Source of the DNA: Paralichthys olivaceus
Lineage: Eukaryota > Chordata > Actinopteri > Pleuronectiformes > Paralichthyidae
Reading direction: 5' to 3'
DNA length: 64,000 bases
Assembly: GCF_024713975.1 (NCBI RefSeq)
Contig: NC_091114.1
Location: 11,752,001-11,816,000 of the forward strand
The notes beneath the pieces were generated by a model. That model worked only from the letters and a program-made list of their open reading frames with translations. It searched no databases and was not told the DNA's origin. Positions 7,801 to 55,844 of the stretch are shown here, piece by piece. Position 1 is the stretch's first letter, and each line of letters starts with the position of its first letter. A program made the translations under genes and the position numbers.

Positions 7801-7890
7801 GGCTCGGTACCGCCAGAGCTGACGGCATCACGCCAGTCATTCCATCTGGCCATGGGCAACCCCAGCGAGTTCTTTGTGGATGTCATGTAG
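1836..7890 (+). CDS. dvl2: Dishevelled segment polarity protein 2 (5' partial)
   Basis: Cytoplasmic scaffold that passes Frizzled signals to canonical Wnt and planar-polarity branches. Exons: 1836-1945, 2162-2291, 2769-2859, 3011-3080, 3231-3370, 3688-3764, 3872-3939, 4037-4171, 4646-4777, 6205-6381, 6742-6966, 7328-7890. They join in one frame to 638 residues plus a split codon and a TAG stop. The order seen is: acidic/Ser-rich linker ([26 protein letters not shown]), a basic patch ([16 protein letters not shown]), the PDZ domain ([22 protein letters not shown] in exon 5), the DEP domain ([16 protein letters not shown] through [11 protein letters not shown]), then a Pro/His/Ser-rich tail ending SEFFVDVM as in vertebrate Dvl. 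The linker and tail match human DVL2 better than DVL1 or DVL3. The DIX domain, roughly the first 100 residues, must be encoded upstream of the window. High confidence in family, good in paralogue. Confidence 0.95.
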
Positions 7891-9035
7891 TTGTTCAGTC
7901 TGTGTTGAGTGACAATTCATGTGAAGTTAGTGTACGGTTCCCACTTGTTTTGACAAGGATCTGGTGGTAGCCTGTTGAGCTCACAAGTGCCTATTGGATG
8001 AGGGGCGCTTGTTACAAATTTGGTGAAAACAGGGTTTAACATTGACAAAGAAAATATGACAAAATTAGAGTATAATTAATGGTCAGAACAGATGCATTCA
8101 CAACATCTAGTCTCTCATTCTAAATCATTAAATAACTCCGAAATCTACAAAGACCAGTTCTGTTTTTAATCCCTGCACTGAGCTTGTTGGAGCAAACTCT
8201 CAGTAAAGTTTTTGAGTGCCTGCCAGAGCTGCTTAGCACTCTGCTTTTTTCAATTCCAAATATATTTTAGGAGGGTGAGCACCTTCACAAATCAGCCGTT
8301 TATGTCAGAGCAGCCCATCCAGGAAGCGCACAGACCACAGTTTAACACTAGAGGGCGCCCAGCACACCATGTACTTGAAAAGGATTCAATCCTGTACATA
8401 AATCTGGATCATAACGCCAGAGTCGTTGGCGGCACAGGAGTATATCAAGTGCCTTACTCATCTTTACACTCCAAGTACATAGAAACACCTCCTCTTGTTC
8501 CAGCATTGTTTGACAATGAACTTTCTGTATATATCTACTACTCCAATGTAAATGCAATAATACAGAACAGCAAGCTCTAATGTGAAAAAGAAAATAGGTC
8601 CAAATATGTCAGGTGAACTTGTGTTTAGTAATCACTGTCTAGGCCTAGTCAAATAAACGCGTATTGTGAGGAGTGCTATGGTTTGTGGTCTGGGACTGTA
8701 GAGGCTTTACGGTACTAGTCAGTGAAGATAAGATACTGAAAGCGGTACTTTTTGATTACATACAGAGTACATCTTAAGTAACTGTGATCCAAATGCCCCC
8801 AGCTCCTCATGCTTATTTTTATGTTACTGACTCGCATTATTCGCCTATTTCATTTTTGTATGAGTGACTATATAAATCATTTGTAACCCAACTATTAAGG
8901 TGCTAATGAAGAGTCAACATTTAAAAAAAAAAAAAAAAAGAAAGAAAGGATGACATTTTGACAGTGTCACATTGTTTGATTTCATATTGCCACCTCTGTT
9001 TGTGTATTTGAGAATAAATTTGATACTCGCATTCT
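7891..9035 (+). other. dvl2: dvl2 3' untranslated region (inferred)
   Basis: Non-coding sequence after the dvl2 stop. An AATAAA at 9013-9018 is the likely poly(A) signal, preceded by an A-tract near 8922-8947. A 122-codon open frame at 8212-8580 has no protein-like character and I do not treat it as a gene. The end point is inferred, not observed. Confidence 0.5.
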
Positions 9036-10377: not shown

Positions 10378-21346
<10,969 letters not shown>

Positions 21347-25404: not shown

Positions 25405-26412
25405 TTAGTAACTTATTAGAACTTTTATATGAGAAAAAGCAAACCTGTAGGAGTCGCACCGTGTTCTGTGGTGGGGGGGTACCCAGCTGCCTCGCACCGT
25501 CCAGCCCAGGACACTCTTCAAGTACCGGGAACAGCAAGGGAACCTGTGGCTCACGTTCTCCAGGAGTTCCTCTTTGCGCAAACCGTAAACAATTGGCGCG
25601 ACGCACTGCGCCAGGCTGAAGAAGGCGAAGGTGACCACTGCGGACAGTTCTCTGGTCCGCGTCAGGATGAGCTCGTGCTTGTGCAGCGTCGTCAGCACGA
25701 AGCTCACGAAGCTGGGGAGGATGTAAACGGCCAGCTGGGTGCCGTGCAGGGCGATGGTCCGACACCCGGCACGGTTGCGCCGATTGAGCACCCCTAACCT
25801 CCGCCCCTCCACCAGTATGCACACATAGCTGTACAGAATCAACATCGTGCACAACCCGATGAACAGCACCTTCTGCAGCACGCCTCTCCTCAGCTGCTCC
25901 GGGCCACACTTCCCGCTGTAGTTGTCCTCTTGGCTCGGCTGGAGGAGCAGGCTGAGGGGGATGACCAGCGCCACCAGCCAGGTGAGCGCACCCAGCAGCC
26001 AGGGCCAGTGCCCCGCGATGCAGGTGGCGGTGTAGCGCATCGGGTGGCACACGGCGCAGTAGCGGTCCAGAGCCATCACCGTGAGCGTCAGGAGGATGCA
26101 GGAGGCGCTGCAGATCAGGATGGTCACCATGAGCAGACAGGCGGTGCGTCCCGGCTGCGCGTCAAGGTGCACCTGATAGTAGAAGACGCTGCTCATGCCC
26201 AGGTGGAGCAGAGCCGACACCAGCAGCTGGAAGACCAGCACGAAGCGCGCTCGAGTCCGGAGCCGCTCCTCCCGCACGATGGTCCAGTTGATGATGAGGT
26301 TGAAGAAGAGGAGAACCGAGAAGGAGACGGTGGACACGTAGAAGCGCACACAGGTGTACTCCCTCCCCGGTGCTGCTGCTGCTGTTGTCTCCGCGGTGCT
26401 GTTCACTGACAT
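25405..26412 (-). CDS. Rhodopsin-class GPCR, odorant receptor 131-2/GPR148-like
   Basis: Intact single exon of 335 aa. Seven hydrophobic segments are visible near residues 23-46, 54-80, 92-115, 134-157, 178-201, 217-242 and 256-279. N-glycosylation sites occur at N4 and N42. Class A marks: Cys92 with Cys169 as the likely disulfide, DRYCAV (116-121) with CHPMRY after it, and PIVYGLR (273-279) in place of NPxxY. LHGTQLAVYILPSF in TM6 and the PIVYG ending fit the fish or131-2 family and also mammalian GPR148, which share these features; I cannot choose between them. Ligand unknown. The coding part is much richer in G+C than its flanks, and the two antisense open frames over it are by-products. 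The start is the first in-frame ATG and gives a short extracellular N-terminus typical of this group. Confidence 0.85.
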   Translation of the reverse strand: MSVNSTAETTAAAAPGREYTCVRFYVSTVSFSVLLFFNLIINWTIVREERLRTRARFVLVFQLLVSALLHLGMSSVFYYQVHLDAQPGRTACLLMVTILICSASCILLTLTVMALDRYCAVCHPMRYTATCIAGHWPWLLGALTWLVALVIPLSLLLQPSQEDNYSGKCGPEQLRRGVLQKVLFIGLCTMLILYSYVCILVEGRRLGVLNRRNRAGCRTIALHGTQLAVYILPSFVSFVLTTLHKHELILTRTRELSAVVTFAFFSLAQCVAPIVYGLRKEELLENVSHRFPCCSRYLKSVLGWTVRGSWVPPHHRTRCDSYRFAFSHIKVLISY

Positions 26413-26559
26413 GATCCCTCAGGTGGGGCAGGCTGGACTGATGATGATGAAGATGATGGTGATGATGATGAAGATGATGGGAAAGAGAGCTTATACCCTG
26501 CATGATCCTCTCTCGTTGCTCTCTCACTGAAGACTGAGTCAGAAACACCGCTGCTCAAG

Positions 26560-27797: not shown

Positions 27798-28919
27798 TAA
27801 GAGTGAGTTTGTTCCATCAGTCTTGGTCAGACTTTGCTTGATTCGGATCCTGCAGTGAACTTGTTGAAAAGTCTCACCGGAGAATCGCGGTTTTTTTCTT
27901 TCCTTCCACTGGTGGAAAGTTTTGGTGACCGCACCAGAGAGTGAGGGTCACTCACAGTTCTTGTTTAAAAGTTTAGAGTAAAGTCTGAACTGTCAATTAG
28001 CTGCATTCTGAGCTGTTTCCTCTTTTCTTCGACCTCATGTGATTTATTCACACTTTGCTTCCTCTGTGGACTATTAACGTTGCTTTTTAAAAAACTTCAT
28101 GATAGTTAATATGACTGAACCAACATTTAATCAAACTGTTAATGTGAATCAGGGCCAATGATCTGATTTAGTGGATGAACATTAACATTTTAATATCATG
28201 AGATTTCTTTGATTTATATCAAAACTAACGAGTGTGTGAGCAAACAAGATGAATGCATGAGACAACCCGTGTTAAAAACAACTTATATCAAAACCTGTCT
28301 TTTTAGCTACAACATGTGGCTTTAGCTAAGTTAGCTAGAGCTAGCTAGAGCTGCAGCTCCGAGATAGCCACAGTTGAAGCCCTGAATTAGCTAAACTAGC
28401 CAAAAGCTGTAGCTCTAAATTAGCTTAGATAGCTTTGCTCAGGATGTTTATATGATATCTGTGTTTTAATGTAGTGTTATTTCCTGGGACCAAACCCCTC
28501 CACCAAGTGATGTGGTAAACCATCAGTGGATCCTGAATACAAGCTAAAAAAAAGAGTAAAAGATTGAGAGAAGTTTAAAGAAGGGAAACGTCAAACAGCA
28601 GGCAAAGTTAAACTTTTCCCACACTTATAAAAATGTGATTCATATCAAATCTTGCAACATGTTGCTATAACCGCATCCACTCATCTGTGCAGGATCTGCA
28701 AGATATCGCACAGTTTAGGAGCAGCACATTCAAACCACTCTGGTTTTTTGCTTTAACGCGTCAGCACAGGAAGAAGTAGTCACGGACACCAAGTATTTGG
28801 TTTGATATATGGTTTTCTTTGTTATTGACCTGAATGAGAAAACACTGAGATTATTTTTATACTGTGACAAACCAGTCCCCATTCCCACTTTCTGAATTCC
28901 TATCTTGTATCCTCCAGCC

Positions 28920-30653
28920 ATGGCCAACTATAGCCAGGTCCCGACCATCTACCAGCAGCCTGGGACCGCCTACAACCAGCCAGCGCCCGCCTACAACCAG
29001 CCACCGCCCGCCTACGGGCAGCCACCGGCCATCTACAACCAGCCCATGCCCATCAGCTCACCCCAGGTTGTGACAGTGACCACCACCAACGCCCAGAGCC
29101 ATAGCACATGGAGCTCCGGCCTCTGCGATTGCTGCGCTGACATGGGCACCTGTAAGCACCGTCCCCTGCGTCTTCTACGTGCTTTGCTCCTCTTTTTCGT
29201 GCTGAGATATTTATACTCTTCCAGTTTAACATCCGTTGCATGTGTTATAAACGCCATTGGCGCGCGCCCACTCGCTCGCTGTGAGTTTTCCAGATATGTA
29301 ACACACAAAACTTAATGCCAAGTCAAATGTGATGAATTCTTTTCTGTCTGCTGCAGGTTGCTGTGGGCTGTGGTGTTTCCCCTGCATGCAGTGTCAGACA
29401 GCCAGTATGAACGGCTGGTGCTGCCTTATGCCACTCCTGGACTGCTGCTGTGTGGTGTCCTGCTTACTCCGCTCCTCCATTAGAGAGCGCAACGGCATCC
29501 CTGTAAGGCTGGTTTGAACGAGGGGGGCATTGATGAGGGGAGTGGGTGAGAATGTCAGAGTGTTGTTCTGTGGTCGGTTATGAGATGTGAAGCCGGGAGA
29601 GTCGACGGAACAGCGTGAGATCTTTTTAGTCCAGTTTTTGGGATTATCTTTACACAGTTTTCTGTTCCTCTGTATTTCCAAGAAATGTCTCATGTCTCAC
29701 TTCTGGATTAAGCAGTTCCAGTTCACAGCATGAATTTTGTCCACCTTAACTCTCAAGTTTGACTTGTTTGAAATGTCTGGTCTCGCCCCAGACGCTAATG
29801 TGAGAATCACACATTTGTTTTTTTTTTAGTATCAGTTCAACTAAATTTGGAACTTTTTTTTTTTTCACTCACCTCAGGCCCGATAGATGGGAGTGAGAAA
29901 AACAATTATATCATAGATGATAGAATCTTGATTTCTGTTGAACGTTGAGTTTTAGGGTTTTTATTCCTGGAAATTTGGGTTAAAAATCGTAGTTTAACAT
30001 CTGTAGTTCAGTAATACAAAATTAGGGACTTTTATGTACTTGACATCCAGTAAAGGCTGTTTTTGCAGGTCTTTATGGACTAGCACTGAGTTTCATATCA
30101 TTCATTTCCTCAATCGTCTCTCTATCAGATAACTGCACAGTTTGCATCTGTCAAGAGGAACTGTGAGCTTTCTGAATTTGGAAATAACAAGAGATAAAAA
30201 AAAAACCCTACATCCACCACATAATTTTAAACAAACCTGACTCCCTTTATTATTTAACTAAAAACACAACTCCCTGAGATCTTATTTGAAATGTGATCAA
30301 TAGCTGCTAGGATTCAAATTCAGAGCATTCAAACATTGTTTTTGCAATGTTTGAATTACGTAGTCATGGTTTGACAAAAACAAATATTAATTTACCCCAT
30401 CGCTCAAACAGCCTTGAACTGAAGCCTAAATACACACAGCAACTGAGGGCTGGTTAGAAACAAATGTTCATTTGCCCAGATTCATCCCCTCTGTCTTTCT
30501 TTCCTCCTGCAGGGTTCTTGCTGCGACGACTGCTGCAAACTCTCCTGGTGTTACGTGTGCGTCTGGTGCCAGATGAACCGAGAGCTGAAGGTCAGGGAGG
30601 GCCGGGCAGCCAGCTCCTCCACAGTGGTCACCACGCAGGTCATCAATGTATAG
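28920..30653 (+). CDS. PLAC8/cornifelin-family cysteine-rich protein
   Basis: Three coding exons, 28920-29151, 29357-29502 and 30513-30653, join to 519 bp (172 aa). Residues 1-50 are a Tyr/Pro/Gln-rich tail with four near-repeats of the form AYNQPxPAY, giving way to [12 protein letters not shown]. The rest is the PLAC8 domain: [24 protein letters not shown], then [38 protein letters not shown] and a final [15 protein letters not shown]. The CC/CxxC order, the R-x-x-I/Y-R-x-R-x-G-I-P motif and the closing C-x-x-C-Q-x-x-R-E-L are family marks. Members are small proteins linked to membranes and to leukocyte, epidermal or ion-handling roles; the function of this one is not readable from sequence. 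Fish carry several PLAC8-like/ponzr copies, so no symbol is given. ATG context (CCAGCCATGG) is strong. An AATAAA follows at 30911. Confidence 0.92.
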
Positions 30654-31932: not shown

Positions 31933-34900
31933 ATGGACATCTACGAGGAGGCCGTGTTCTATCTACGGGAAAAACATGTACCAGGTGAGGGACATTGTGT
32001 TTTGGGATGTGAGGGAAAATATGATTTAAAAAGCATTTAGTTTTTCTTTGGGGAAACCACAACACATCCCACATCAAACTGAGAGTAAGAACATTTGCTG
32101 TTATGTACACCAGAACTTTTATTGCTATTGCTAGGTTGTTTTTTAAAAAAGTTGAACCCATATTTGTCAAAGACAGTTTTTTTTTGTCCTTTGCAGCAAC
32201 AACTAATTTGCACATATTTAAAAGAGGAAGCAGAGATGTGTTGTTTTCGATCACTCATGTGTTTGTGTGCTGCAGTGGAGATTGGGGTCCTGGAGGAGGA
32301 TGTGCCCCTGGAGGAGACAATGTCTCCTCTTCATACAGAAAGTATGGACTTCCCCGCCATCTCTGTGAGTTCACATTTCTTTCCATTTCAAAAAAGTTCT
32401 GCGTCGCTCTGTCTCTCTGTAGTTCCTCTAATTCTCTAAGGGACAGTTCAGTCCTTCAGCAAACCTTGTTTTCACGATGCCGGTGGGAAAACTCAGAGGC
32501 AGCCAAGGCCACTCTGTGTTTGGTTTGAGATGCAAAGGAAGATGCATCCTAAAACATTTCAATACTGTACAATAGCTATTCCAGGTCCTCTGTTTATGCA
32601 TAAGATTTACAAAAGAAATATTAAAAGATCTTCCACCTCTTGACTATGAATGTACCTGTATTTTATTGACTGATTTCATAACTTTTTTAAACAGTTTAAA
32701 AAAAAAGAGAACTAAGAAAAGGAATACAGTAAGCCTTTGTGTTTGTTTATATTTTGTTTGGCTTTGCTTCCTCATTCGTTCCCTCCGACTCAAACAGGAG
32801 AAACGTGTCACTCTCGGTTGTACACAAATGAAACCTTTCACTAGTCAAAAAAAAAAAAAAATCCATTTGCATAAAGTTAGAAAAAATGGTGGAGTGTCAG
32901 GATGAGTACGGCAAAAATTGTCTTGATGTTGAATCTGATTCAGGCGTCGATCAGCCCAGAGGAACTGTTGGAGAGGAGGCTCGTGGTCCTGAAAGGCATC
33001 GTGGAGAGTGAGGAGGTTTATCTGAGCGAGCTGGAGGCCCTGCTCATGGTAACACACACACAAACACACAAAAATGAACCAACACCGATATCTATTTCTA
33101 TATATACACATCTATATCCACATTTCCATATCTATATATACATCTAATTGTTGTTGCGTCGCCTGCAGTCACTCTTGATTCATTTCACCTCTTCATGGAT
33201 GTAAATTTTGACTTTGCATCAACACACAGGAGCTCATTTTGTACGTATTCACTGGGTTTGAGCAGCAGTCACATGCACATTGCTGTGCCTGTGGTCAGAG
33301 TCAATGTCATTTGCAGTATTCAACATATTTGTCGTTCAGCTTCCTTGTTTGAGCCTTAAATCAATTGTTCTCCATTGGAAATGTAATTCCCCCATTATTT
33401 TCTACATCTAATATGATGTAACAGTAAGCACCAGTCAGCTTAGCTCAGCATAAAGAATGTTTACAAGGGGAAACAGTACAGTGTTTCATTATTTTCTACC
33501 TAATACTTGATTAAGTTTGACACGTCTTTAAATTAAATCCATAGCATTTAATATGTTCGTAACTGAAAGCAGAAAAATGTGTTCAGGTATGGGCAGAGTC
33601 TTGATAAAAGTAGAGATACACTGTATTTGCAGGAAGTGCTTGGTCAGTTTTTTTTTGTGCTACTAATAGCAACGTTAACCCCAATTTCCTCATTCTCTGT
33701 GACTCATACAGTCAAACTGAATCTAAACACTGATGCTGGGTCTGCTAGTGCTGCGTTGGTTGCAGCTCATCAGAATGCAAACGTTTTGTGGTTTTTATTT
33801 GTCATGAAAAAGTATTTTCTATTTTCTTGTTTTGATTCAGCAGCAGCGTGAGTACATGTGTCAAAGATAAAATAGGGAAATAAATGCACGCTATAGCTCA
33901 AATGAGTCCTTTCATGCTCATATCACCACGGCCTCTGTCTGTTTTCTCTTGGCCTTCAGCCTTTTTGCTTTTGCAGCTCAGTTGTTTAACTCTTTTGAAA
34001 ATGTTTGATTCTAGCCCATGAAGGCTCTACGGGCCTCGGCTGGGACGTCCAAGCCGGTTCTGTCCAGTCAGCAAGTCCAGACAGTTTTCTACCAGGTGCC
34101 CGAGATCAGAGACATGCACCAAAGTTTCTACTCCGGTCTGAAGGCCCGGCTGAGCGCTCACTGCCACACAGATCTGGATGAGCAGAGAGAGAGGAGCCAC
34201 GAGGGCTCTGGGCTGACGGTGGGGGACCTGTTCCTGAAAATGGTGAGATTTCTATTGGTTTTAGTGTTTGTGTGGCTTTGAATGAAACATCCTAACACAG
34301 TTTGAACAAAGTGCAGCAATTTGCAGCTAAAGATTCAGATACTTTCCTCTGGAGTTGATGGAGATTGGAGCCAACGAGCAAAGTTCATAAGCAATTTACA
34401 GATTCATGAAACTGCTGAAGTTCGATGCGCAGCCGTTGTTATGTCATGAGTCTCACCTGCTCGTTCCTAACGGCTCCTATTGGACTCACCTGGTTTCTGG
34501 GCTTCGTCCTGATGGAAACTCATAAAACACCTGAGCACAGACAACACTCTTGATAGATCTTCTTCTTAACTTGAGTTCAGTGCAAATGTCTGTCGAGAAG
34601 CGAGACGATCGTGGAAACATGGGTTTTTTTGTTGAGCAAATCCTCAGACAGAAGTTGTCCTTTATTCCTCAGTGGTTTTTTCTGTCTAATTGAACTCAGG
34701 CAGCAACTAAACCTGTGAGTGTAAGGAGACAATCATGAGATTCAGTGTGAGCACATGTTTAATATTTAGAGGAAATTAATACATTTATTTCAGCTGTTCA
34801 AACATCCATTTATCAAGTTAATATTATTATTAATTCTGTCATGATGCTACGTTTCTTTATCTTTTTGATGGTAAATAGATATCTCATCATATCTGTGGTT

Positions 34901-37072
34901 CTTGAACTTTTTTCCCATCATGCTTTTCTAAAGAAACCACAAAATAAATTTAACAATTATGTGTAAATATTCTGCTGTGTATCTAAAATGTTTAGTTTGC
35001 ATATTAACTTAAAATGTAGTAGATTATTTTCTGTGAAATTTTTGGTTTCACAAACTATCAGAAATACATTCTTCAGTTTTAATCACATGTTCATCAGATC
35101 CTTGTTGTGCTCTGTCACTCAGGTGAACCAGATCGGTCTGTACGGTGGCTTCATAGAAAACTATGAAGAAGCTGTTGCCGTTGTTCGCAGGTGCACACAG
35201 TCGGACCCTCGCTTCCGAACTCTGGCCGAGGTAAAAACAGCTGTACAGTAAAAGCAGAGTAAACACAGGAGTCGTCCTGTATCAGGGTGATCCTCACCAG
35301 TTCTCGTGTGTTTCAGAGCATGATGTCGAACAACACTGCAGACAAAGCTCGCACCAAATACACATTTGAAGGTACAAATTGAGTTATTTAATATAACCTG
35401 ACTTGTTTGCTGCTTTATGGTCTGATTGCCGTCTGTTCCTTCACAGCTCTACTGTATAAACCTTTGGACAGAGTCACCAAGACCACACTTGTCCTGCATG
35501 TGAGAAAAAGTGCATTTAATCACATTAATTTTTTATTTTGAATCCTGAAACTTCTTAATTATCTCTGATGCTCATCTTTGTTTTTGCATCAACAGCTGAT
35601 GATGAAATAATCTTGTTGTGAAGTGTAATTGAAGCAGAGAACCACTACGTCCTCCCGCTTTTCTGATTCACGACCTCTCTGTGATCCTGCAGGACCTCCT
35701 GAAGACGACGCCAGCGGGCCATGGGGATCACGCAGCCTTACAGGAAGCTCTGAGGTTGTCCCGCAGCTTTCTGTCTGGTGTCAATGAGAGTTCACAGTGC
35801 AAACGAGAGGTCACGCTCAGTCACGGCTTGGTGAGGCCCATCTCCAAGTGCACCCATCCTCAGACGTCCTCCCGCACCTGACAATGTGCAGCATCTGAAG
35901 CAACAGAATAACACAGAATATAATCTGTGTGTGTTTATCCCAGAGACGTCAGTTGATTCGTGACGGCTTTGTGGTGGATGTGAGCGAGGGGGAACGCAGC
36001 CTGCGTCACCTGTTCCTCTACACTGACCTCCTGCTGTGCACCAGATTCAAACCAGCAACCAGAGGGTGAGTGTAACCCTGACAAACACAAGGGCCTGTGG
36101 GAAATATAGTCTACACGTTAGCATTAATAAAACTGCATGTGTGTATCCACCTTCATCTCATCTGGGTAATTTTACCTAACAAATAGATGTTTGATTAAAT
36201 CAAACCAATGTTCATACTGAGGCGGTTGTTACTCCTGAAAACTTCATGTTGTATTGGAGGTGAATGAAAACTGATTAGCAATAGCTTGAGAGTAGCTAGT
36301 AAAGTAAAAGTAATCCAAAAATTAAAGTTTAAAATAACCTAATGGACACCTAAATGTTAGTGAGTTGGTAAACGGGTAAATAGTTGAAATATAATATTTA
36401 AAGTAGTGGGAAAGGAGTTAATTAGCTGAATGCAATGGATGCACATTTAAAAACATGATCAACTCATAATAAATGTGATGGTAAATTGTGTAAATTTTTT
36501 TTAATAATTATGCAGTTCTAAATAACAAATCCAGGTTCTGAGGCTGATTTTTTTTCCATTAATTATTGTTTGGTGATTGTTTTGTCTATTTTTGTTGTGT
36601 GTGTGTTAATGCTGGTGTAGCATGATAACAATTGTGTTTTGCTTTTTCAAAATAAGAAGAAATGTCCCCTAGGACATTTATTATTTTGGAATGAGATACA
36701 TCTATAAGTTTGTGTGTGTGTGTTCCAGGAAGCAGGACCAGTACAGGTTCTGCTGGTTTCTTCCTCTCGCTAGTCTCAAACTGCGCTGGTCCTCAGATCA
36801 TGAACCGGACACACGTCTTCGCTTACACTCCGTGAGAAACAAGATGTACGTTCTCCGGCAGCAGCTGCAGCAGCATGCGGTATGTTTAATACACAGACAC
36901 AGACGTGTGTGTGACCTTTTAAACAGACACATGAAATGTAAACGTGTGTGTGAAGGGATCCAGAGGCCTGATGGTGGCGGCTCGTACCCGGAGGAAACTG
37001 GAGCAAACGGAGCTGATGCTGTTCACTCAGTCGCCTTTTTATAGACTGGAGCTGCACAGCCCCAGTGGAAAG

Positions 37073-37119
<47 letters not shown>

Positions 37120-40100
37120 TCCTCTGTTACTAAAAGGAAAAACAGCAAAAGCATAAGAGAAATCTGTTTTCTTTCTGCAGAGTCACACTCTCCTCTTCCC
37201 CTCCTTGTATGAACTTGAAGAATGGAGAGAAGCCATTCATAAGCTCACCACACAGAGTAAGTTCTAGATTTTCTCTTGTAGAAAATGTCATTATGCCAGT
37301 TGGTCATTAAGACTGGCTGTACACATATTCTGTTATGTTAATTTTTTTATATTCTCGCCCATTTCTGTGTGTTTGTGCAAAACAACAACAATGCATGTTG
37401 ACAAGTTTTCACCAAACGTGGTGGTAATATTACTCGGGAGGGTAATTTACTTTTAGAGCTAATAGGTCAAAGGTCATGGTCAACAAAAATATAGTTTGGA
37501 GAAAAGATATGCAGTGTCAAAGAGTTTTGTTTCCCTATCATATATGATATTATAGGTAATTCCATGATAAAGTCACAGCGTAGTCAGAAAATGATACGGT
37601 GCATTGTTCAGTATATGTTTTTGAGTTTGTATGAATGGTGTGTGATCGTGAAAGGCTGCTGTCTGAACGTGTGTGTGAAAGAGGGAATGTGACTTGTATT
37701 AAAGAACTTTTGAGTGCTCGATAAAACTGGAAAATATCTGTGAATACAATTAATTAATTATGACATCATCTTGGTGTCAGTGTGATGGTGTCCTGCATAA
37801 TGAGATGTCATAGGTGTGTATATAATGTGCTGTTTGCCTTTATATGATTTATATGTATAATCAACATCACTAACTAAACTTGATCTGAGTCTTGAGTCAA
37901 GTGATGATTGTACTTAATTATGTACAACTGAGGGATCCTTGTATTTATAATTTTCTCTTCTGTTTTGCTGTTTTTTTTGTGGACAGTTTTTCATTAAAAC
38001 ACAAAAAAAGTTAATAAAAAATCAAACGTGATCTTTAGCTTATTTAGATTAACCAATAATTTGTCATCATATGGTATAAATGATGATGCTAGCTATCCAG
38101 CTAGATATTTAGCTAGGTAGGGCTGTATTTCTATCATTTGTCGAACAGGTTTAAAGCTCATGAATCAAATATGTCTTTGGATTAAACTGTCTGCATATTA
38201 ATACTTGTTATGATTTGCAATGCTGGTGATAATGTTCAATTAAACAAAACCTATCCTTTTAATTTCCTTTTTCCTGGAAAGTGCATCTTCAGTTATTACT
38301 TCCATCAAGGAGGTTGTGTTTTCACCTGCGTTTGCTTGTTTCCTAGTTTGAAGGATTACGCAAAAATGGAATCAACCAATCTGGTGCATATCCAGATAAA
38401 AATCTAGAACAAATGAATGGGCTTAATGAGGGGGACTTGGTGCAGGTCTTTGATGTGTTATTCAAGTTTCCACTAATTTCCTTTTCTCTGTAAAGTGAAG
38501 CCACAACAGCTCATTGCTGTATTTAAAATTTAAACTTGTGTTGTCTGTCAGACATAGAAACGGTCCCTCCAGACCTGCTCACTCTCACCAGTGCATGTGT
38601 GAAACTGAGGATGACCCAGCAGCCGCCTCTGCAAACCTCCAACTCTGGTACAACCACATCACATCCTGTGTCTGAAATCAAATACGACTCTGACGGCTTT
38701 TACGGCTGATCTCTTTCCACGCTCTCTATGACTTGCTCATCTTTCACTTGAGCTCAGGACGATAAAATGCTCAGGATATTTTTGTCTCTGTCTCACCAGT
38801 AGAGGACAAGGCTCAAGACTCATTGCGTGGGACTCTAAACGTGGCGGTCCACTCTGCCTGTGGCCTGCAGCAACCAGCCTGTATGTATGTACACAAAAGT
38901 TTAGATTTAAAAAAGAAAATAGGTTAATGTGGTGATGGATTTTTTTTTTTTTGTGATCCTTTTTTCAGGTGTGTATGTTTGTGTGGAAGTAGACGGCCAT
39001 GAGTTTTATGATAAACAGGCCCAGACGCACACTTCAGTCCACAGCATCAACCCACACTGGGACCAGGTCAGACTGTGACACCTTTAAAACTAACGAATCC
39101 TCATATTTTATTCTGAAACCTTAAATTAGAGAATGGTGAACTATGTCTAGTGGTCAGATCCAGTCGGACACATTTGGTAGATGATTCAGTCTGAGTTGTT
39201 GAAAGACATCTTTGTGTCTAGACAGCATCTGACGTGATGTCAGGCCTCAGTTGAACTCACGGGGGATTAAAGTGTCTGCAGAGTGGCCGAGCTTTAAACA
39301 TGATCATCGGCAGTAAAACCTGCTCTAAATCCAACTGGAAGCCACAAGAAAGACTTGAAGTGTTAATGATGTCTCCTTCATATCAAACAGGAGCTGACGT
39401 TCCAGGTGGACGGGGCTCAGAACCTGAGGGTGGTCTGTGTGAGTCAGTCTGACGAACACGATGAATCTGTCCTGGGAAAAACTTCTTTCAGGGTAAGAAG
39501 ACGTTCAGGAACTTCAGCTTAGTGTCTTCAAGGTTCAATGCAAATAAAACACGTTGTGTTTTCAGCTCGTTCTGTCGTCCTGAAGTGGCTGAAAAATAAT
39601 TGTTGCTGCTTTTAAAATATATAAAAAAAGGGGAAATATAATAGCGCCTGCTGCAGGTTGAGGATTTTACCTGCAGAAGCATCATGTTGATTGTTTGTAG
39701 AAAGAGTCTATTTAAAAGCAGAGATGTGGAAAAAACGACCCCAGACCATTGTTCCTCCCTTAGTTCACTTCCAAAGTATTTGTTTTGATCCAAGATATAA
39801 ATCTAAACATTTGCCTTCATATTGATTTAATACGTATTTGTGTTTTTCCAGCTGGAGTCTAAATCCTTGAGTAAGCGATGGAGGAGACAGACTCTCCAGC
39901 TCGGCCGAGTGGAGGTGACTGTGTCCCTGAGGTACAGTCCCCACCCGCTGGAGCCGCCCAGCTCCACAGCTCCACACCTCCCCGTCTTCTGTGTCCCTAT
40001 TGAAACTGTGGCTCAGTAAGTTCCTGCCAGTCTGTCTGTAATACTCGACACTTAAAGCTGCAGTTCAATTTAAAGTTTTATTTGCCTGCTGAGCCTTTTT

Positions 40101-42350
40101 ACGAAGCTAGTTTCGGGAAGTCAGGCGATTTATTTTGTGGCACCGTGAGAGAAGCAGGAGTGTGTCAAGAATGGAGTCTGAAATGAAAATGAATCAAACT
40201 GATGCGTTAAACATCTGAGGAGGTGGTTTTAATTCTTGATACTTGTTATTCTGTTCCAGACAGGAGGGGGCGCTGGTTCCCCATGTGGTGCGGTGCTGTG
40301 TGGAGGAGGTGGAGCGGAGAGGCATGGACGAGGTGGGGATCTACAGGATTTCAGGGACCGCCAGTGATATCTACACGCTCAAGGCTGCGTTCGACAGCAG
40401 TAAGATACGCACAGTCAATCATCAGTTCCTGGGTATTTAAAGGGAGGCTGGTTGTAATTCATACTCGTAAACTGCTTGAAACAACAGGAGATCGTCACGT
40501 AAATGCTGGAAATCAGGGTCAAAAAGTCGGGAGCTACTATGAGGTTTTGTCCAAAATAACAATCGGGTCCCTCTTGACAGTTTTCCCATAGTATCACATT
40601 ATCATACTAAAGCAAATAGCCATAAAGACGCTTTGGGAATTAATTCACAGGTGCTTTACGTCAAATTCACGCTGAGGCACAACCACTGGATTTCCATGGA
40701 AACTGGTGGAAACATTCACATGTTGAATGCTATTTAGCATCTGTTGGCATAAAAGCACTTAAATCTGCTGAAGCATGTTAGCATTAACTGTGTCTTGATT
40801 GCCCCCTGGTGGCTGGCTGCAGTATGAGTCATAATCCCTGACCTCCACCATGTTAACAAATGGGATATGGACCAAAATAAAATGCAAAGAAGATGAAACT
40901 GAAGTTTTCGTATGCGATCCTGCCTGTGTATCGGCAGGATCTCATTGCCACTGTTCCACTATGCAAAAAGCCAGAAGAAGGAGCAGTTCTAAGTAATCCT
41001 CGTCTGCCTGTTTCAGATCTGCGTGAAGCTGTACACAGGCTGAGAAGCTCCGAGGTGAACGTCGTCTCTGGTGTCCTCAAACTGTACTTCAGAGACCTGC
41101 CTGAGCCGCTCATACCCTCTGAGCTGTTCCACAGTCTGACCAGGTCGCTGGGTAAGAAACACTTAAACCTGAAAGATTCATGATTCCACTTTATGAGCTT
41201 CCATGTTTATATAGACAGTTATAAGCCCTGATACTTTGTATACTTTTATATCACAAATACTTCACTATTTGGGTATTTTTTCAGAGACATTAATCAAATG
41301 TTAATTTTCTTCGTAAGTAATTTGTCATTATAATTGAAGGATAATCCATCAAATAACACACAGACTAAATCAAACTTCATATCACAAAATATAGATTCTG
41401 TGTTATTAAGTTCTATATATTTGGTTGTGTTTGTGTTTTCTTTCTATTTGTCACATTTCTATGTCATGAGGAAGAGATAGACTTCTTGGGAAGCATTGAC
41501 AATTTTTTATATTGTAATATATCTTTATCTGTGAGACATCTGTATTTTCTCTTATCAGCCGGGCTCTACGGAAAATATTTGTTTAGAGAAAGATCAGGCA
41601 GCTTGTCAACATAAGATTTAAAGATACAGGCTGAAGGATAAAGGCCTTACTGCTTCCCCTCCAGACATCCAGGACATGAACGCCCGGCTCGTCTCCATGC
41701 TGTCCCTGCTGCAGTCCTGTCCTGACACCAACCGCTGCACCTTCCTCTACCTCATGCACCACCTGCAACGGTCTGAGTCAGACAGCGCCGCGTGATCTCA
41801 CCTGATGGTTCGACTTGAAATGTTTTAACGTGTTTTTCTACTCCGTGTTTCTTCAGAGTCTCTGAGAGGCAACACATCAACAGGATGACTCCGATGAACC
41901 TGGCCACAGTGTTTGGTCCCAGCCTGTTACGCCCCCCTGTGGCTGTGAATCTCTCAGAGGAGGTGGTGTTGCAGGTGGGGGTGAAGCCGTGGAAATGTTT
42001 TAGTGAAGGTTTTCCAGACAATCAAAACACAATCATTTAAAAAAAATTAATTTATTCATTAATTTATTCAGTTAATTATTCTGTGATGTTTATTTTTTCA
42101 TGCAAAGATTTAAATGTCTTCCCCACAAAGTCATAAAATTATGACAGGGAAATACATTGTTTTCATAATAAAATGTATAATAATATGAACATGCATAGGA
42201 AATAGATAGATAGGTAAATAAAAGGATTTATCTGAAATAAGTTAATTAATTATGTTTCTTAACAGTTCTTAAAAAATGTATTATGTATCACAAAAGGGGG
42301 TTCTCAACTTTTCTGTATTTAATTATGCTTTGGTTTAAAAATTAAATTGA

Positions 42351-47762: not shown

Positions 47763-49231
47763 TCACTCAGGAAGTGGCGTGGAGCAGACCAGAGCCGGTG
47801 TGAAGGGGGACGGGCTCGTCTCTGTGGGAGGGTGTGTGTGCGGCTCTGCTAAGGTTTGAGTCTTGTCCACTTTGACAGAGTGTGTGTTCACATTGTCTGT
47901 GTCTTTCTCAGTCAGCAGGTGGGGGGGGATGTACCCAGCCTGTGGTTTTGTTTGCTCCCTGCGTTGGCTGTTGGGGGACTTTGCGGGGCAGCGCCCCCTC
48001 TTGTCGTGGCCCCGGAAGCCCCTGAGTTTGGGGCTCCAGTGTTCCCGCCACTGGAGGGCCAGAGTGGAGCGGTCCGCCACCAGGCGACTCTCCTCTGGGC
48101 CCCAGCCCCGCTCTCCTTCCTCCGCGCCAATCAGGAGGTAAGTCCGACCCACGTGTAGGGCGGGGCAGCCGCAGCCGAGGTCACGGTCGGGGACCCAGAG
48201 GGAGTGGGGGCCCCTGCGAACGCGGGAGGTGGAGCCCGTACGGTAGACGGTTTGGACTGAGATGGAGAACTGCCACCAGGGACCTGAACGCTCCATCCCT
48301 CTCACCTGCACCTTCAGCACTGAGACACAACAAAATACATGTTTTAAATCATTTAATGTTTTTATTATTATTGTTGTTTAAAGTCAAATACAAAAGGTCA
48401 CCAACCGTAGTCTTTGAGACAATAGGTCTCTAAGTTCATCCTGACTTTAACCTGAGACGGCTGGCAGTATGAAACACACTCCTCCGCTAAGAGAGAGAGA
48501 GGGAGGGAGGGAGGGAGCATCAAATGAGAGGGTATCATGTCATAGCGAGCATATCAGCACATGTCTTTTCCCCTAATTACAATATGGCTGCTTCTATTTG
48601 TCATCACAGTATCCAGTGACTAACAGATGACCGTCGAGTGCAGCAGGTGGGACATTCCTGGAGCTGCCACTAGGAGGAGGTGCTCGGCTACCCCGCGACG
48701 AGCCGCTCCGCTGAACGTCCCATGTGTTCAAAACCCAACGTGACCCAAGGCGAGAGAAGATTTCTGTTTTGATATATGATTCCATTGAAGTGGCTGTAAT
48801 TTGTGTGTCGTACATGATGTGACACCAATGGGGTCAAAGGTCGAGAGAGCGAGAAAACTTTATTCCACTCGGAACAGAGTCAACCACGGCATTTTAAACA
48901 GAATGATTATATAGATTATATAACAGAAAGATTGTCCTGACAGGTTGCCAACTTTTTCTATCGTGCACTGGGGGCTCGGCTGAGAAACATTACCCGCAAT
49001 GATCAAATACATTTAGAGATATTAGACACAGGAATAAAATAATAGGAATGAGATCAGGTCTAAAGGACACAGGCAACGATCAGTATGAAAGGTACTTATT
49101 GCACGTCTACTCACCGATGCTGTACTGAGGCTGGTACGCTGGGGTCGGAGCGACCTCTTGAATTCCTGTAAAACATAAACACACTTTCAGACAGGTGATG
49201 GGAAACACAGGAAGCTGTCAGGCTGATGCCA

Positions 49232-49268
<37 letters not shown>

Positions 49269-49480
49269 GTTTGTTACGCTCAAATGCCTGTGTGTGTGAG
49301 ACATGCCTGTGCAGAAGATAAGCAAGTGTGAGACTGTTTGTGTGTGCGGTCCTTTTACGGCCCAGATCCACACACACTGACTCACACTGAGCGCACAAAG
49401 ACACAAGCTTAACTTTTTGTTATTCCACCTTGTTTGGTTTTATCTGGAACATTTAACAGAGTCTAATAAAGTTTGTTTGA

Positions 49481-49511
<31 letters not shown>

Positions 49512-52500
49512 GTGGGGGGAGACAACCTGCTGCTCCGCACATACATTATCCAGGCCTCTTGTAAAAGTGCAGCCATATAACACCGGGCTCACGCTGTCCA
49601 TGTCCTGTCTTCGCTGACACAACTGGGCCAGTGACACCCTACACCCCCGTCCAGCTGACTGTCCCCCCAACCATTTTTAAAAGCCAGGAAGTCGCTGTGT
49701 GTTTGTGGATGTACAGTAGGAACACACTCTGTATGTGAGAGGTCGTGATGAGGAAATCGAGGGCTCATGTCTGCACAGAGCTCGGTATCGCTTCAAATAT
49801 TTACATGCGCTAAATACCAAAACTACACTTTGAATGTTTAGACTCAAAAAACAATCAGGTTTACAAATTCAATCTAAACACAAGAAGCTTTATCAAATAG
49901 TTTTTGCATGAAATGGGAAAAACTATGACTTCAAATCCAGCATCAGACACAAACAACAGAACATGATCAGAACTCAGCTAATCTCCTGGTTAATTCAGGA
50001 AAAACTCATCAGGCCCCTTTTGAAAACACATTCGAAGTCCCTAAATCCAGATTTTGATTTTGATCTGAAACAAAATGCACATACTTGCACACATGCCAGA
50101 TTTTTTTTATCAAGTCCCTGGGAAATGTTGAAAATTTCACAATGTTAAAGAAGGAGAAATAATTCGAGATCAACCCCTTGATCCAGATCCACACTGAAAT
50201 TAGATTTGAATTGAATTGAATTCCTTGACCCAGTCTAGTAAGTATATATAATAAAGGATGTATACTTCCTTTTACTAAACTTCGTGGAAATCCATCCTGT
50301 AGTTTTTGTGTCATCCTGCTAAAAACAAAAGGATGAAAACACAACCTCCTTGGTTAAAACTTAATCTAGTTCATGTTCATCAACCAGTGAGAAAATCAAC
50401 TTTCTCATTTACATTCGACGTTAAGATTAGTTTAGTTAAGTTTAGCCTGACTTCTGCTGCTGCTGCTGCTGCTGCTGATTGGTGCCCTTTGGTCTGTCTG
50501 ATGAGAGAAGGAGCTGTGGTGTTGGATGTGGCGGCGCTGGGAGGGCGTAAGAGACGCTATACTTAGCCTGAGATGGTCTGGCAGTAAAAACAAACAAGGT
50601 TTTCTTTCACTCACTCCTTTCACTGGGAGAGTTATGAGTCTGGGCCCAGTGACGGGGGGGGGGGGGCGTCCTGAGCCGGGCAACAGGTGTGAAGCTCGTC
50701 GCCGCTGGCTTCCTATGTCACCTGATTGGGGCTTTGCACAGCGTTGGGGCCTGTGTGGTTGTCGGCACTTGTGCGATTAGCCTCCAGCGAGCGCACGTGG
50801 ATTAGCGCTCGGGGGGCTGTGGTTCGGTGCTGGAGATAAGAGCAGCAACAATCCACTTGATCTGACGCTCATCCCAGATCAGCTGGAGATGAGGTTTCCC
50901 TGCAGTGGTCAGCTCATGTTCTCGCCGCTATGGAAACCGTCTCCAGGGATGATGAAAAGGGAACATGCTTGGAGATTGGGCCAAATTAGACCGGACCGCC
51001 GCGGCCCCTTTTATAATGAGATACCGTTTGATAAAGGATCAGAGCTCTCGATGGAGGTTTTGATCCGTTTAGGCCACGAGCAAATTAGGCTGAAGGAGAA
51101 ATTAATGAGGTCACTTGTTGTCATGAGCGAGAACAAAGTGTTAAGAGTCTGTGATATATTTACAAAGGGCATCAAACACAGAGACTCATCATCCATATAT
51201 GAACGAGTCCTCCGACCTTCTCGAACAAGTTTTCTGATTTGATGATCCCATCGGTTTTTGACCCTTGAAGGGAATGTTTGGTTAACTTTAGACAACTCAA
51301 AGCGCCTGACTCAGGCGAGAGTAACTAGCATCTGCGACCTACTCTAGACTTTATATAAAGATGGATCACACTTCATGCCACTATCCAAATGAAGCCAAAA
51401 TATCCTGGACACAAATACTGCCATCTTGCACATTTGGAGCCAGAGTCTGTGCAGCAGCGATCAGGGGATCAGAGGTCCCACCAATAATCACGAGTCAGTC
51501 TCAGCTGTCAATCGTTACAGTTCACTCCGTTTTTATACAACGAACCAAAAAACAAACTCAGCGAAGAAATGTAAACTTGAACCAACATCAGTGTGGTAAG
51601 AACTACCTAAAATGACAGAAACCGTCTTTGAGAAAATTGTATTTAACATGTACTTTGACTTTTTGGTTTGGTCCATGTCCCATTCACTAACATGGAGGTG
51701 AGATTTATGACTTATACTGCAGCCAGCCACCAGGGGGAGGCAATTTGGCTTCACTTTTCGGGCCCTGTCATGTTGTCAACTCTCCAGCTCTCTGCCAGTG
51801 TTGTGAACTTTAAAAACATCATCTCTAACTTTGCTTCTCTGACATGACTTTTCACTCCAATCAACTTTAGGCCTCTCTAAAGGGTTGAACAAATAAAAGT
51901 CTCTACATAAAGATCTGTAATTGACTGAAGGATTCTGATTGGCTGTAGACTTACGTATGCAGGGCCGTAGAGGGGACTTCCCTTGTTTGTATCCTGCGGT
52001 GCAGCGGTTGCACCTGGCGCCGGTCACCCCTTCTCGACACAGACACTGACCTGACGTCTGGTTGCACCAGCGGCCCACTGCTCCCAAAGGATGGCAGTGA
52101 CACGCTGGAAAAGATAAAGAAAACATTTTACAAAGTTTTACCTTTTGTTGTATTTGTTTCTTCTTCTACGAAGATCAATTTGAGTGACACGTTCAGTGTT
52201 GAGCAGCGAAGCTTGTGCAGCTTGTTTTTGATCTCACTTGAAAATTGCAAAATAAATGGAAAGAAGTAGTGATGAGGAGATTCCGTTCTCTCAGCACTAG
52301 TGGTGATTTCATGAATCACTGTGAGTTTGAGACGATGCTATTTAAGAGTGGCAATTTTTCTTCTGTTGTTAATGTGGCTGTGTTTTTGCAAGAGCATGCT
52401 GCATACATATTGTTTTGATCAATCATACTGGTTCTTGATGTGGCTTCAAGGATTATTTGACGTAATTGGAGCTATGTGAGGTGAACAGATGATCACCCCG

Positions 52501-55500
52501 GCTGATTGCCTGTCCGGGAAAACACAAGGAAAATATTTCCTTTTTTCTTTTTTCTTTTTTAGTTTTTGCTGAAATGATGCAACGGGTGTGAAAAACTAGT
52601 GAATTTTCTGGCCTTAAAAACAAAACAATAAGCTGACGGATGATAAAATGTTTCATGGCTCAAACTCACTCACTCACATGTAGTTGTTTTATGTATGGCT
52701 GAAAATGTTTTAATATTAAACAATGCGTCTTTTCATCACATCAGTCATAAAAGGATGTGGATGCACATTTTAGCCTGCCAACATATCTCAGTCTCTGAAA
52801 TAGTCATGGAGCTAAGCAAGTGTATTTGTCTGAGTTGTCCTGATGCAGACAACATGCAAACACACGCAGAAGATATTTTAAGCGAAGAAATGTTAGTGTT
52901 AAAAAGAGTGTTAAAATTTGTGACCACAGAACAAAACAGAGTCTGTACAACAGGTCGGATTAAAACATCCATCCATCAACGGCAGAACCCAGATTTAATC
53001 CTGGATGACAGCGAGCATCTGTCCCGAGGGAGCGTCCTTGAGCGAGACAAAACACCTTTACTGACAAAGATATTCTTAAGCCTCCCTGATGGGTAAACAA
53101 AGACAAATTCCTCCACGAGGGTATTAACTGAACGACACATGATTTGTTTTGGCTTCCTGACAACACTAATACATTTGCAGCATACCAAACTGTGTCAGCG
53201 GTAGAATCACAAAGTCCTGGACCTATTCCCGTCATTGTTCTTGGAGATTTTAGCCTAAAACCATCAAGCTGCAGCTCGAGCCTGTGTTTAAATTCATTTC
53301 TCATCTGTTTTGTTAACTTTACATTGTTGTGATGCTGTATAATGATTACAGCCTGGATTTGCTATAGTTTACACTGCAGAGCTTTTTATTTACCAGTGCT
53401 ATCACTGGATGAGGCCCGATGAGAGAAGGCAGACAGAGAAAGGGAAGCCACACTCGAGCGGCTCTGTTCACACTTGTATTGTTTACACGAGCCCTTACAA
53501 CCTGACAGGAGAAAATGAATAATCATATCTGTGCTGTCCTCTGAATGGTAACTCGATGAAATATAGCCTGGATAAATTAAAGCTGAGACCGTGTGATCGA
53601 GGATGTGAGTTTGCAGGTTGCATATAAAAATCAGAACCCATGGGGATGTTTAGCCGTAGCTCATTTTTCCTCGTAACACGCGTGTCAAGCTCAAAGAGTG
53701 CCCATTAACTTTGGATATATTGGGCCCGCGCTGGTCGAGCTTCCACATGCCAGAGTGTCACAGTCACTTAGGACATGTGACCAGTCAAAGGTCGGGGGTC
53801 ACAGCAGATTCCGACCGGTGGTAACGATGGAGGATACAGGTGGCAGCTCAGCAGGGTGTGTGTTTTTCTGTGTGTTTCTGTGTTCATACTGCTTACAGGA
53901 ATAGCAGTCCAGTCTCACAATGTAACCACCCAATAAACACTTGGACACACACACACACACACGTAGATACTGACGTTGGCAGGCCTTGCGGTGGTCCAGT
54001 GGCTTGCTGTGGTCGCGGGTATATCCATTCTGGCAGTACTGGCAGTGGCGTCCGGCCGTGTGGTGCCGACACTTCTGACACACCCCTCCGCTGCGTCGGC
54101 CCGACTGTTGAAATATCTCCATGCTGAAGCGGCACTTGTTTGAATGACCATTACACTCACAGGCTGCACAAAGCAAAAAAGAAAAGAGGTTCAGATGTGA
54201 TTATAAAGCTTTGTCTACAGTATATCTTGCATGCTTCATCCATAAAGTAACAAATTAGGTGAAATGTTAGTAATAGTTTTTATAAAGATGGATGAAATAT
54301 GAAATATCCAATATATTGAACTGCTGTGCCTTGCTGGAGGAATGAGCTCGACTAGTGTTTTAACTGTGGTCTCCTGACTCACCAACACAGGGGTTTGGGT
54401 GCGTGGGTGTCGCTCGATGCCATGGTCTGTCAAAGTGGAAATCCTCACACACATCACAGTCTGGCCCCGCTGTGTGATGCTCGCACACGCATACCGCCCG
54501 TCCCGCGTCGTCCCGGCGGCACCGAGAGGCGTGTCCGTTACATTTGCACCTGCCTCCAACCTGCAGGTCGGACAGGGCCAGAGGAGCGTGGGCAGGAGGG
54601 ATTAAAACAGAGGGCATGGCCGCCTGCAGATTCCTGGCACTTTGTCTCATGTTGAGATTATTGTTCCTCCTCTTCCTCAGATCCCGCCCTTTGTTGCCCC
54701 TGCTCCGCCCATCCACTGTCCAGTTACAGCCGCCATTGGGGCAAGGAAGCCAGTGGTCATTTTCTTTCTTTTTGCCGCGACCTCTTCCTTTCCCGCCTTT
54801 CTTTGAAGACGGAAGCGTGTCTATGCCAAAAATGTCCACCCTTTCTTTGCTGGTCACATTGTGTCCATCTTCATCTTGACCTGACCCTTTACCGTGACCC
54901 TTCCTTTCATTTTTGTCCACTTTCTCTCCTTTGTTCCTCGAGTGTTTTGTCTCCCTGTTGAAAAATCCCAGTGCATTATCTGTGTTTAGCTTGTTGACCT
55001 GATCTTCAGCGCGGCCCTTGTGGCCCGCTCTCCACCTCAGCAGCCCAGCTTCTCTGTGATCCTCTTGACTGTCACGCCATTTTGATTCGTCTGCTCTGTC
55101 CAAGCCGCCCATCTTGGCAACTTTGGACACTTGATGGAAAACGACACGTATGTCAGTGGCCGTCACCCAATCCTGGAGGGCGTGGCTGTGGTCAAAATCG
55201 GGAGAGGATGGTCTCCCGTCTAAGGTGGAGAAGGCCAGCACCATGCCACCCCTCTGCTTCTGTAGGGGGCGAGGGTCTGAGCAGAGAGGCTCCGTTTCTT
55301 GATGCCTGGTCTGGGCCACCGTCTGTGAGGGCAGCCCAAAGTCTCCGAGGCAGTTGCTAGAGTAGTGCTGCATCGGCCTCCAGGTGCGCCCATAGTCCAT
55401 TGACTTCAGGATGGAGATGGAGATGGGATCTGATGGTTCCCCCTGGTGGCAGAACTGCAGACTTATATAGGTGATCTCAAAGCGACGGCCCAGTGGAACG

Positions 55501-55844
55501 GTGAGCTCCCATTCCCCGATGTCAGTGCCTCTGTGAGCCATCCAGCAGGTGAGGTTATGAGGGTTGTGGAGATCCGTCAAGGTGGTGACATTGCTGTCAT
55601 AGTCAGGTTCTTGTAGTGAGTGACTGGCGTTAACCGGGACCCCATAGGCGGCGTTGATGAACTCTGACAGGCAGTGACGCGGACGGCCATCCAGATGGTA
55701 GCAGGGGTCATGCGGCGAAGTCCAGCTCAACGGGGTGTGGAAAAGGGAAGAGGAGACAAGGGATGGAGGGAGGAAAAGGAGGAGCAGAAGGAAAATGGGG
55801 AAAAAAGAGGTGGAGGGGGGAGGGGAAAAGGGTAGGAACATCAT
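47763..55844 (-). CDS. Netrin-family secreted guidance protein, divergent
   Basis: Secreted laminin-related cue of the netrin-1/2/3 type; known members bind DCC/neogenin and UNC5. Coding exons on the minus strand: 55844-54383, 54163-53975, 52104-51955, 49165-49115, 48486-48406, 48319-47763; 2490 bp, 829 aa. Seen in order: signal peptide ~1-33; laminin N-terminal domain VI from ~46 ([46 protein letters not shown]); a basic insert ~239-423; three LE/EGF repeats ([12 protein letters not shown] at 431, [11 protein letters not shown] at 488, [20 protein letters not shown] at 552); a short linker; the NTR/C345C domain ~620-758 ([37 protein letters not shown]); a 71-residue tail. N-glycosylation sites at N72, N85 and N97. 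Human netrin-1 has 604 aa; the excess is the insert and tail. The exon starts at an acceptor (cctccgcag, 55855-55857), so a 5' non-coding exon lies upstream. Paralogue not settled. Confidence 0.93.
50010..50360 (+). repeat. Dispersed teleost repeat, family A, copy 5
   Basis: The longest copy in the window: 'ccttgatccagatccacact', 'aaacttcgtggaaatccatc', 'tgtagtttttgtgtcatcct', then 'aacacaacctccttggtt'. Located in netrin intron 3 (between LE3 and linker exons). Confidence 0.8.
50453..50477. repeat. (CTG)n trinucleotide run
   Basis: About eight CTG triplets in netrin intron 3. Confidence 0.95.
50760..51245. other. Candidate intronic conserved element, netrin intron 3
   Basis: Unique, balanced-composition block between repeat family A and element family B, rich in homeodomain-type and other short motifs (AAATTAG, AAATTAATGAGG, TTATAATGAGA, GGATTAGCGC). 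It resembles the texture of fish developmental enhancers. A 117-codon open frame at 50889-51242 shows no recognisable protein. Inference from composition only. Confidence 0.35.
51345..51776 (+). mobile_element. Longer copy of non-autonomous element (family B, copy 3)
   Basis: Starts 'tagactttatataaagatgg', passes through 'atgaagccaaaatatcctgg', 'gacttatactgcagccagcc', 'accagggggaggcaatttgg' and ends 'ggcttcacttttcgggccct'. The start and the last part are the same as the two ends of the 99-bp copy at 20983-21081. No coding capacity. Confidence 0.75.
52105..53974. other. netrin intron 2 (1.9 kb)
   Basis: Intron between LE2 and LE3 exons. A 133-codon plus-strand frame at 52695-53096 lacks protein-like features. 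No repeat family recognised. Confidence 0.5.

Follow-up and report, generated by a model that had tools for sequence, protein, structure and literature searches.

Does the netrin gene in the 64,000-nucleotide stretch of DNA analysed here (the window) really encode a long extra segment between its N-terminal LN domain (domain VI) and its first LE repeat, and, if so, what might that segment do? The observation stands. The insert is real and coding, and it is better seen as one part of a remodelled top of the LN domain than as a hinge between domains.

The netrin gene and its insert

The netrin coding sequence (47763..55844) was modelled from sequence alone on the minus strand, to which all coordinates of this gene refer. 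The model consists of six exons (55844-54383, 54163-53975, 52104-51955, 49165-49115, 48486-48406 and 48319-47763) and encodes 829 amino acids. The joined reading frame contains no internal stops, and all exon borders are GT/AG. In splice-site scoring two of the donors, GTCAGT and GTTGGT, were weak, and an acceptor-like CTCCGCAG is found immediately 5' of the ATG. The first exon belongs to an open frame that runs from 55928 to 54360, stop included; the exon ends at 54383 with the donor TTG/GTGAGT. The modelled protein begins with a hydrophobic, signal-peptide-like segment (judged by eye), followed by domain VI, three LE repeats and an NTR domain, with Pfam matches to Laminin_N (4.6e-32), NTR (6.7e-25) and EGF_laminin (2e-21, in three stretches). 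Domain VI occupies residues 46-236 (55137..55709), as placed by PDB alignment to netrin-1 and by cysteine counts. DLQVGG and most of LE1 (54383..54569) share an exon with the insert, and the last exon (47763..48319) encodes most of the NTR domain and a tail. LE1-LE3 contain 24 cysteines, as in netrin-1, and the NTR core contains six. Beyond the last NTR cysteine that aligns with netrin-1 the chain continues for another 74 residues, among which Pro, Thr and Ser are abundant (47763-47984, minus strand).

In comparisons with PDB sequences, whose chain lengths differ, the scores were 575.6 bits for netrin-1 (8snp), 191.5 for laminin γ-1, 144.4 for netrin-4 and 70.3 for netrin-G1. Identity to netrin-1 is 64.7% across a 102-residue stretch of LE1 and LE2 and 41% over the NTR domain. 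We classify the protein as netrin-1/3-like and divergent. Netrin-1 also scored best in four of four BLAST comparisons that included human NTN5 and NTN3, an outcome that a slowly evolving netrin-1 would give anyway and that does not discriminate between orthologue groups such as ntn2/ntn3 and ntn5.

Five other genes or groups of exons were observed in the window. On the plus strand these are the exons of a dishevelled gene (2104-7898; PDZ, DEP and Dsh_C matches, the PDZ matching DVL2 best with DVL3 nearly equal), those of a very-long-chain acyl-CoA dehydrogenase-like gene (13083-21337), PLAC8/cornifelin-type exons recognized by eye (28911-30644; the scanned piece 29317-29511 gave no Pfam match at 0.01) and RhoGEF and RhoGAP exons that are BCR/ABR-like by eye (32935-41986; the RhoGEF match was just below the Pfam cut-off). 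On the minus strand a single exon carries a 323-residue frame of a rhodopsin-type GPCR (25450-26418; 7tm_1, 1e-18).

In the netrin gene, DIRVVF ends at 55137 and DLQVGG starts at 54569. The 189 codons between these anchors (54570..55136) encode residues 237-425. The initial annotation had described a long insert at residues ~239-423, contained in one exon and one open frame, and the measured positions bear out its coordinates to within a few residues as well as its continuity. In human netrin-1 the two anchors are separated by only 26 residues, which makes the net insert ~163 residues long. When measured from the ALQDW strand to CNGHASRC, the segment is 221 residues long in the window's netrin, compared with 54-69 residues in 21 of 22 matched PDB sequences (netrin-1, UNC-6, netrin-4, netrin-G and laminins), the remaining row, laminin α-1, being only partially aligned.

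The reading frame of the insert contains no stops, while the other two sense frames contain 7 and 9 and shuffles lead one to expect ~5.5. Dinucleotide shuffling of the insert left the reading frame free of stops in only 4 of 2000 sequences, and any one of the three sense frames in 11 of 2000. Among 5000 mononucleotide shuffles, 13 matched or exceeded the codon-phase chi-square of 22.3. The GC content of the insert is 0.519. The exon has 0.579 where it encodes domain VI and 0.62 where it encodes LE1, and the five introns have 0.24-0.45, so that the insert is nearer to exon than to intron values. We believe that the insert is very probably translated. A synonymous-codon test gave the insert +8.8 (mean of shuffles -2.1, sd 4.2) but was discounted as coding evidence, since neither of its coding controls, domain VI and the remainder of the gene, showed an in-frame signal.

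The insert had no significant match in Pfam (best E-value 1.9) or PDB (best E-value 5.4). Inside it no tandem repeat was found at a score of at least 30, only short direct repeats, and blastn of the insert yielded, beyond itself, only chance-level matches of 13-24 bases among the eight matches listed. An origin from a repeat or a mobile element was rejected on these results. No relative turned up in scans of prokaryote genomes and viral contigs, which is unsurprising for microbial and viral collections. Among the papers listed by full-text searches of the open PMC library, no title or displayed abstract described such an insert.

Two changes in the LN head

The LN domain has been described as an eight-strand jelly roll in which a long βa-βb hairpin with two disulphides runs across the top edge; in the same account the top is shaped by this hairpin and by the β7-α4 loop (PMC3409155). 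The insert lies 3' of the DIRV strand and 5' of the last LN strand before LE1 (PLALSDL here, YFYAVSDL in netrin-1). Because it lies between these two strands, we assign it to the β7-α4 loop, which would place it at the top edge of the LN head; the strands were mapped from sequence, partly by way of laminin β-2 numbering.

The initial annotation did not mention that domain VI is also shorter than in netrin-1 at another place, by 26 residues that include four cysteines. Between NAAYG (NAAF in netrin-1) and LTDL there are 20 residues without a cysteine (residues 69-88, 55581..55640), where netrin-1 has 46 residues with four. The phmmer alignment to 8snp is split, with query residues 44-80 and 87-240 paired with residues 37-73 and 106-255. 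Domain VI as a whole has six cysteines, compared with ten in human netrin-1. The missing residues and cysteines fit the loss of the two-disulphide βa-βb hairpin as that structure has been described, and if the hairpin is truly gone, the LN fold tolerates the loss of its disulphide hairpin. The loss of the hairpin and the growth of the adjacent loop may be linked. The calcium ligands described for the LN domain of laminin γ-1, an Asp and a Thr eight residues apart (PMC3409155), are kept here as D91 and T99.

Charge of the loop and what it might do

The chain of the insert is basic and glycine-rich. It contains 40 Lys and Arg, 24 Asp and Glu and two cysteines, and its net charge of +16 confirms the basic character that had been attributed to it. 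The CPNGGC pair reported earlier is present at residues 368-373 (54726..54743) and provides the only cysteines of the insert. Basic clustering had also been claimed and is present at residues 348-360 (54765..54803), but its strength is within that expected from composition (2717 of 10000 shuffles). Clusters as a designed-looking feature were rejected, since they do not exceed shuffles of the insert. Two N-glycosylation sites in the insert were matched by 3823 of 10000 shuffles and are likewise within composition. A charge-hydropathy test classed the insert as disordered but did the same for LE1-3 and NTR, both of them folded in netrin-1; the test therefore discriminates poorly. The chain is probably disordered. 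AlphaFold2 run without an alignment gave a mean pLDDT of 38.4, and the model was too poor for use.

We also compared the distribution of charge with that of human netrin-1. The net charge goes from -5 in netrin-1 to +16 here in the β7-α4 loop, from +20 to +9 in the NTR core, from +16 to +13 in LE1-3 and from +1 to -9 in domain VI. GAG binding by netrin-1 has been located in LE2, to an RRXR motif in loop ab and RH/HR residues in loop cd, and LE2 is reported to be shared by the GAG site and the UNC5/DCC contacts (PMC9984387). In the LE2 exon of the present gene (53975..54163), the loop-ab GAG residues R348, R349 and N353 are N, K and S; R351 is kept. RRCR has thereby become NKCR, which no longer matches RRXR. 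All six loop-cd GAG residues (R-H, K, H-R-K) are kept, and LE2 is still basic (+7, pI 9.25, compared with +10 and 9.64 in netrin-1). The LE2 GAG site may thus be weakened but not abolished. F55 and Q443 of netrin-1 are described as interface residues for the neogenin domains FN4 and FN5 (PMC8063088). Of the DCC/neogenin contact residues, F55 is kept as F62 and Q443 as Q591, the latter in the LE3 exon (51955..52104), where R445 has become K593. Since F55 and Q443 are both kept, receptor binding may persist.

Our best guess, to which we assign a probability of about 0.4, is that the loop serves as a tether on a remodelled head. The LN head would have been remodelled at its top edge, where the two-disulphide βa-βb hairpin would be gone and the adjacent β7-α4 loop would have grown from 26 to 189 residues. 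The long loop would be exposed on the head and would disturb neither the angle between LN and LE1 nor the two contacts with DCC/neogenin. As a flexible, polycationic chain it could then tether the protein to heparan sulfate or to other acidic matrix and assume some of the GAG binding that in netrin-1 falls to LE2 and NTR. Heparan sulfate binding by the loop, as a candidate extra GAG site, is plausible from its sequence, and an extra positive loop beside a lost Cys-rich hairpin suggests a remodelled binding surface. Against such a role, the basic clusters, the RKRR motif discussed below and the N-glycosylation sites are all within shuffles of the insert. In addition, with the loop-cd GAG residues kept and LE2 still basic, the original site in LE2 may remain functional. 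The heparan sulfate grip of netrins decides their spread and the clustering of their receptors. If the loop is indeed a tether, this netrin, with its large basic loop at the opposite end and its weaker LE2 motif, would offer a natural case in which the GAG site is separated from the UNC5/DCC contacts. It is a good deal more doubtful that this extends to a whole lineage, in which the hairpin was dropped and a 180-residue flexible, glycosylated, polycationic loop moved the main heparan sulfate site from LE2/NTR to the head, uncoupling matrix capture from receptor bridging along the stalk.

Nearly as likely as a tether is a neutral expansion, in which a tolerated surface loop of a fast-evolving netrin paralogue grew by slippage or small insertions and owes its basic residues to base composition, with nothing specific about them. 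Purines occupy 70, 67 and 52% of codon positions 1, 2 and 3 of the insert, and the purine richness of the first two positions favours codons for Lys, Arg, Gly, Asn, Asp and Glu. A neutral origin also agrees with clusters and sites that are within composition, with the lack of a known domain in the insert and with the divergence of the remaining protein (64.7% identity to netrin-1 in LE1-LE2 and 41% in NTR), which includes a new 74-residue tail. However, it would leave to coincidence that the charge shift in the loop runs opposite to that in the NTR core and domain VI, and that the LN domain is heavily altered a second time along this edge. Nor does the insert contain a tandem repeat at the score of 30 or more used above.

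Processing by a proprotein convertase is improbable. The loop would be cut at RKRR (residues 390-393, 54666..54677), with the LN domain then either held to the stalk by the rest of its fold or released as a fragment. RKRR is followed by NNN and fits the furin-type rule R-X-K/R-R. However, at least one furin-type site was present in 3408 of 10000 shuffles of the insert, so that RKRR is not above what composition provides. A cut before the last LN strand, in the fold as it has been described, would also break the domain rather than cleanly part LN from LE.

The initial annotation had further proposed that the insert changes the angle between domain VI and the LE stalk, which the present analysis does not support. 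According to this proposal the insert loosens or bends the domain VI-LE1 junction and so alters receptor clustering. The insert does directly precede LE1 in sequence, and netrin-1 is described as a rigid rod that bridges two receptors (PMC8063088). However, the last LN strand and DLQVGG come after the insert (the netrin-1 counterpart is YFYAVSDLQVGG), and the LN-LEa1 junction, as far as it is described in PMC3409155, seems to be fixed by the N-terminal LN segment and its proline; the DPC start of that segment is kept here. Because the junction seems to be fixed in this way, the insert is unlikely to act as an LN/LE1 hinge, and we give the proposal as a whole very little credence.

An equally small chance is left to the possibility that part or all of 55136-54570 is a constitutive or optional intron that is open by chance: an acceptor-like site (3.4 bits) with frame-keeping donor partners does exist at DLQ/VGG (54560), but, in a GT/AG scoring that used general splice-site frequencies and untrained weights, the best frame-keeping pair reached only 2.9 bits, compared with a mean of 5.0 (sd 3.2, up to 300 draws) for random 630-base pieces of the window and ~3.8 to 11.5 bits for the five real netrin introns, the best candidate intron (606 bases) would also take out part of domain VI, and the GC content of 0.519 is above the range of the introns. 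The earlier judgement that an unspliced intron is unlikely agrees with this below-background pair and with the stop-free insert.

Comparison with known systems

The closest relative considered, netrin-1 (PDB 8snp, 4urt, 4plm and 7ne0), shares with the present protein the LN domain, LE1-LE3 with 24 cysteines and the NTR core with six, as well as F55, Q443 and the loop-cd GAG residues. The two differ in the number of residues before DLQVGG (189 here, 26 in netrin-1), in the shortened part of domain VI (20 residues without cysteine against 46 with four), in NKCR for RRCR, in the charge of the NTR core (+9 against +20) and in the 74-residue tail. Mammalian netrin-5 is likewise a divergent, netrin-1-like member of the family (PMC4403520, PMC4726805), but the murine protein is described as having no domain VI (PMC4403520).

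UNC-6 (PDB 8edk) has the longest ALQDW-CNGHASRC segment among the LN chains compared, and its 69 residues are still ~150 fewer than the 221 found here. The LN domain of laminin α-5 resembles the present one in that LN-top loops vary, and its βa-βb hairpin is reported to contain unusually long connections (PMC3409155); the hairpin is thus longer there and missing here, and the segment is 60 residues long. In netrin-G1 and netrin-G2 the segment is 54 residues long and has no such insert, but the LN top of these proteins is described as binding NGL ligands (PMC3409155), and hence the top of an LN domain can gain new partners.
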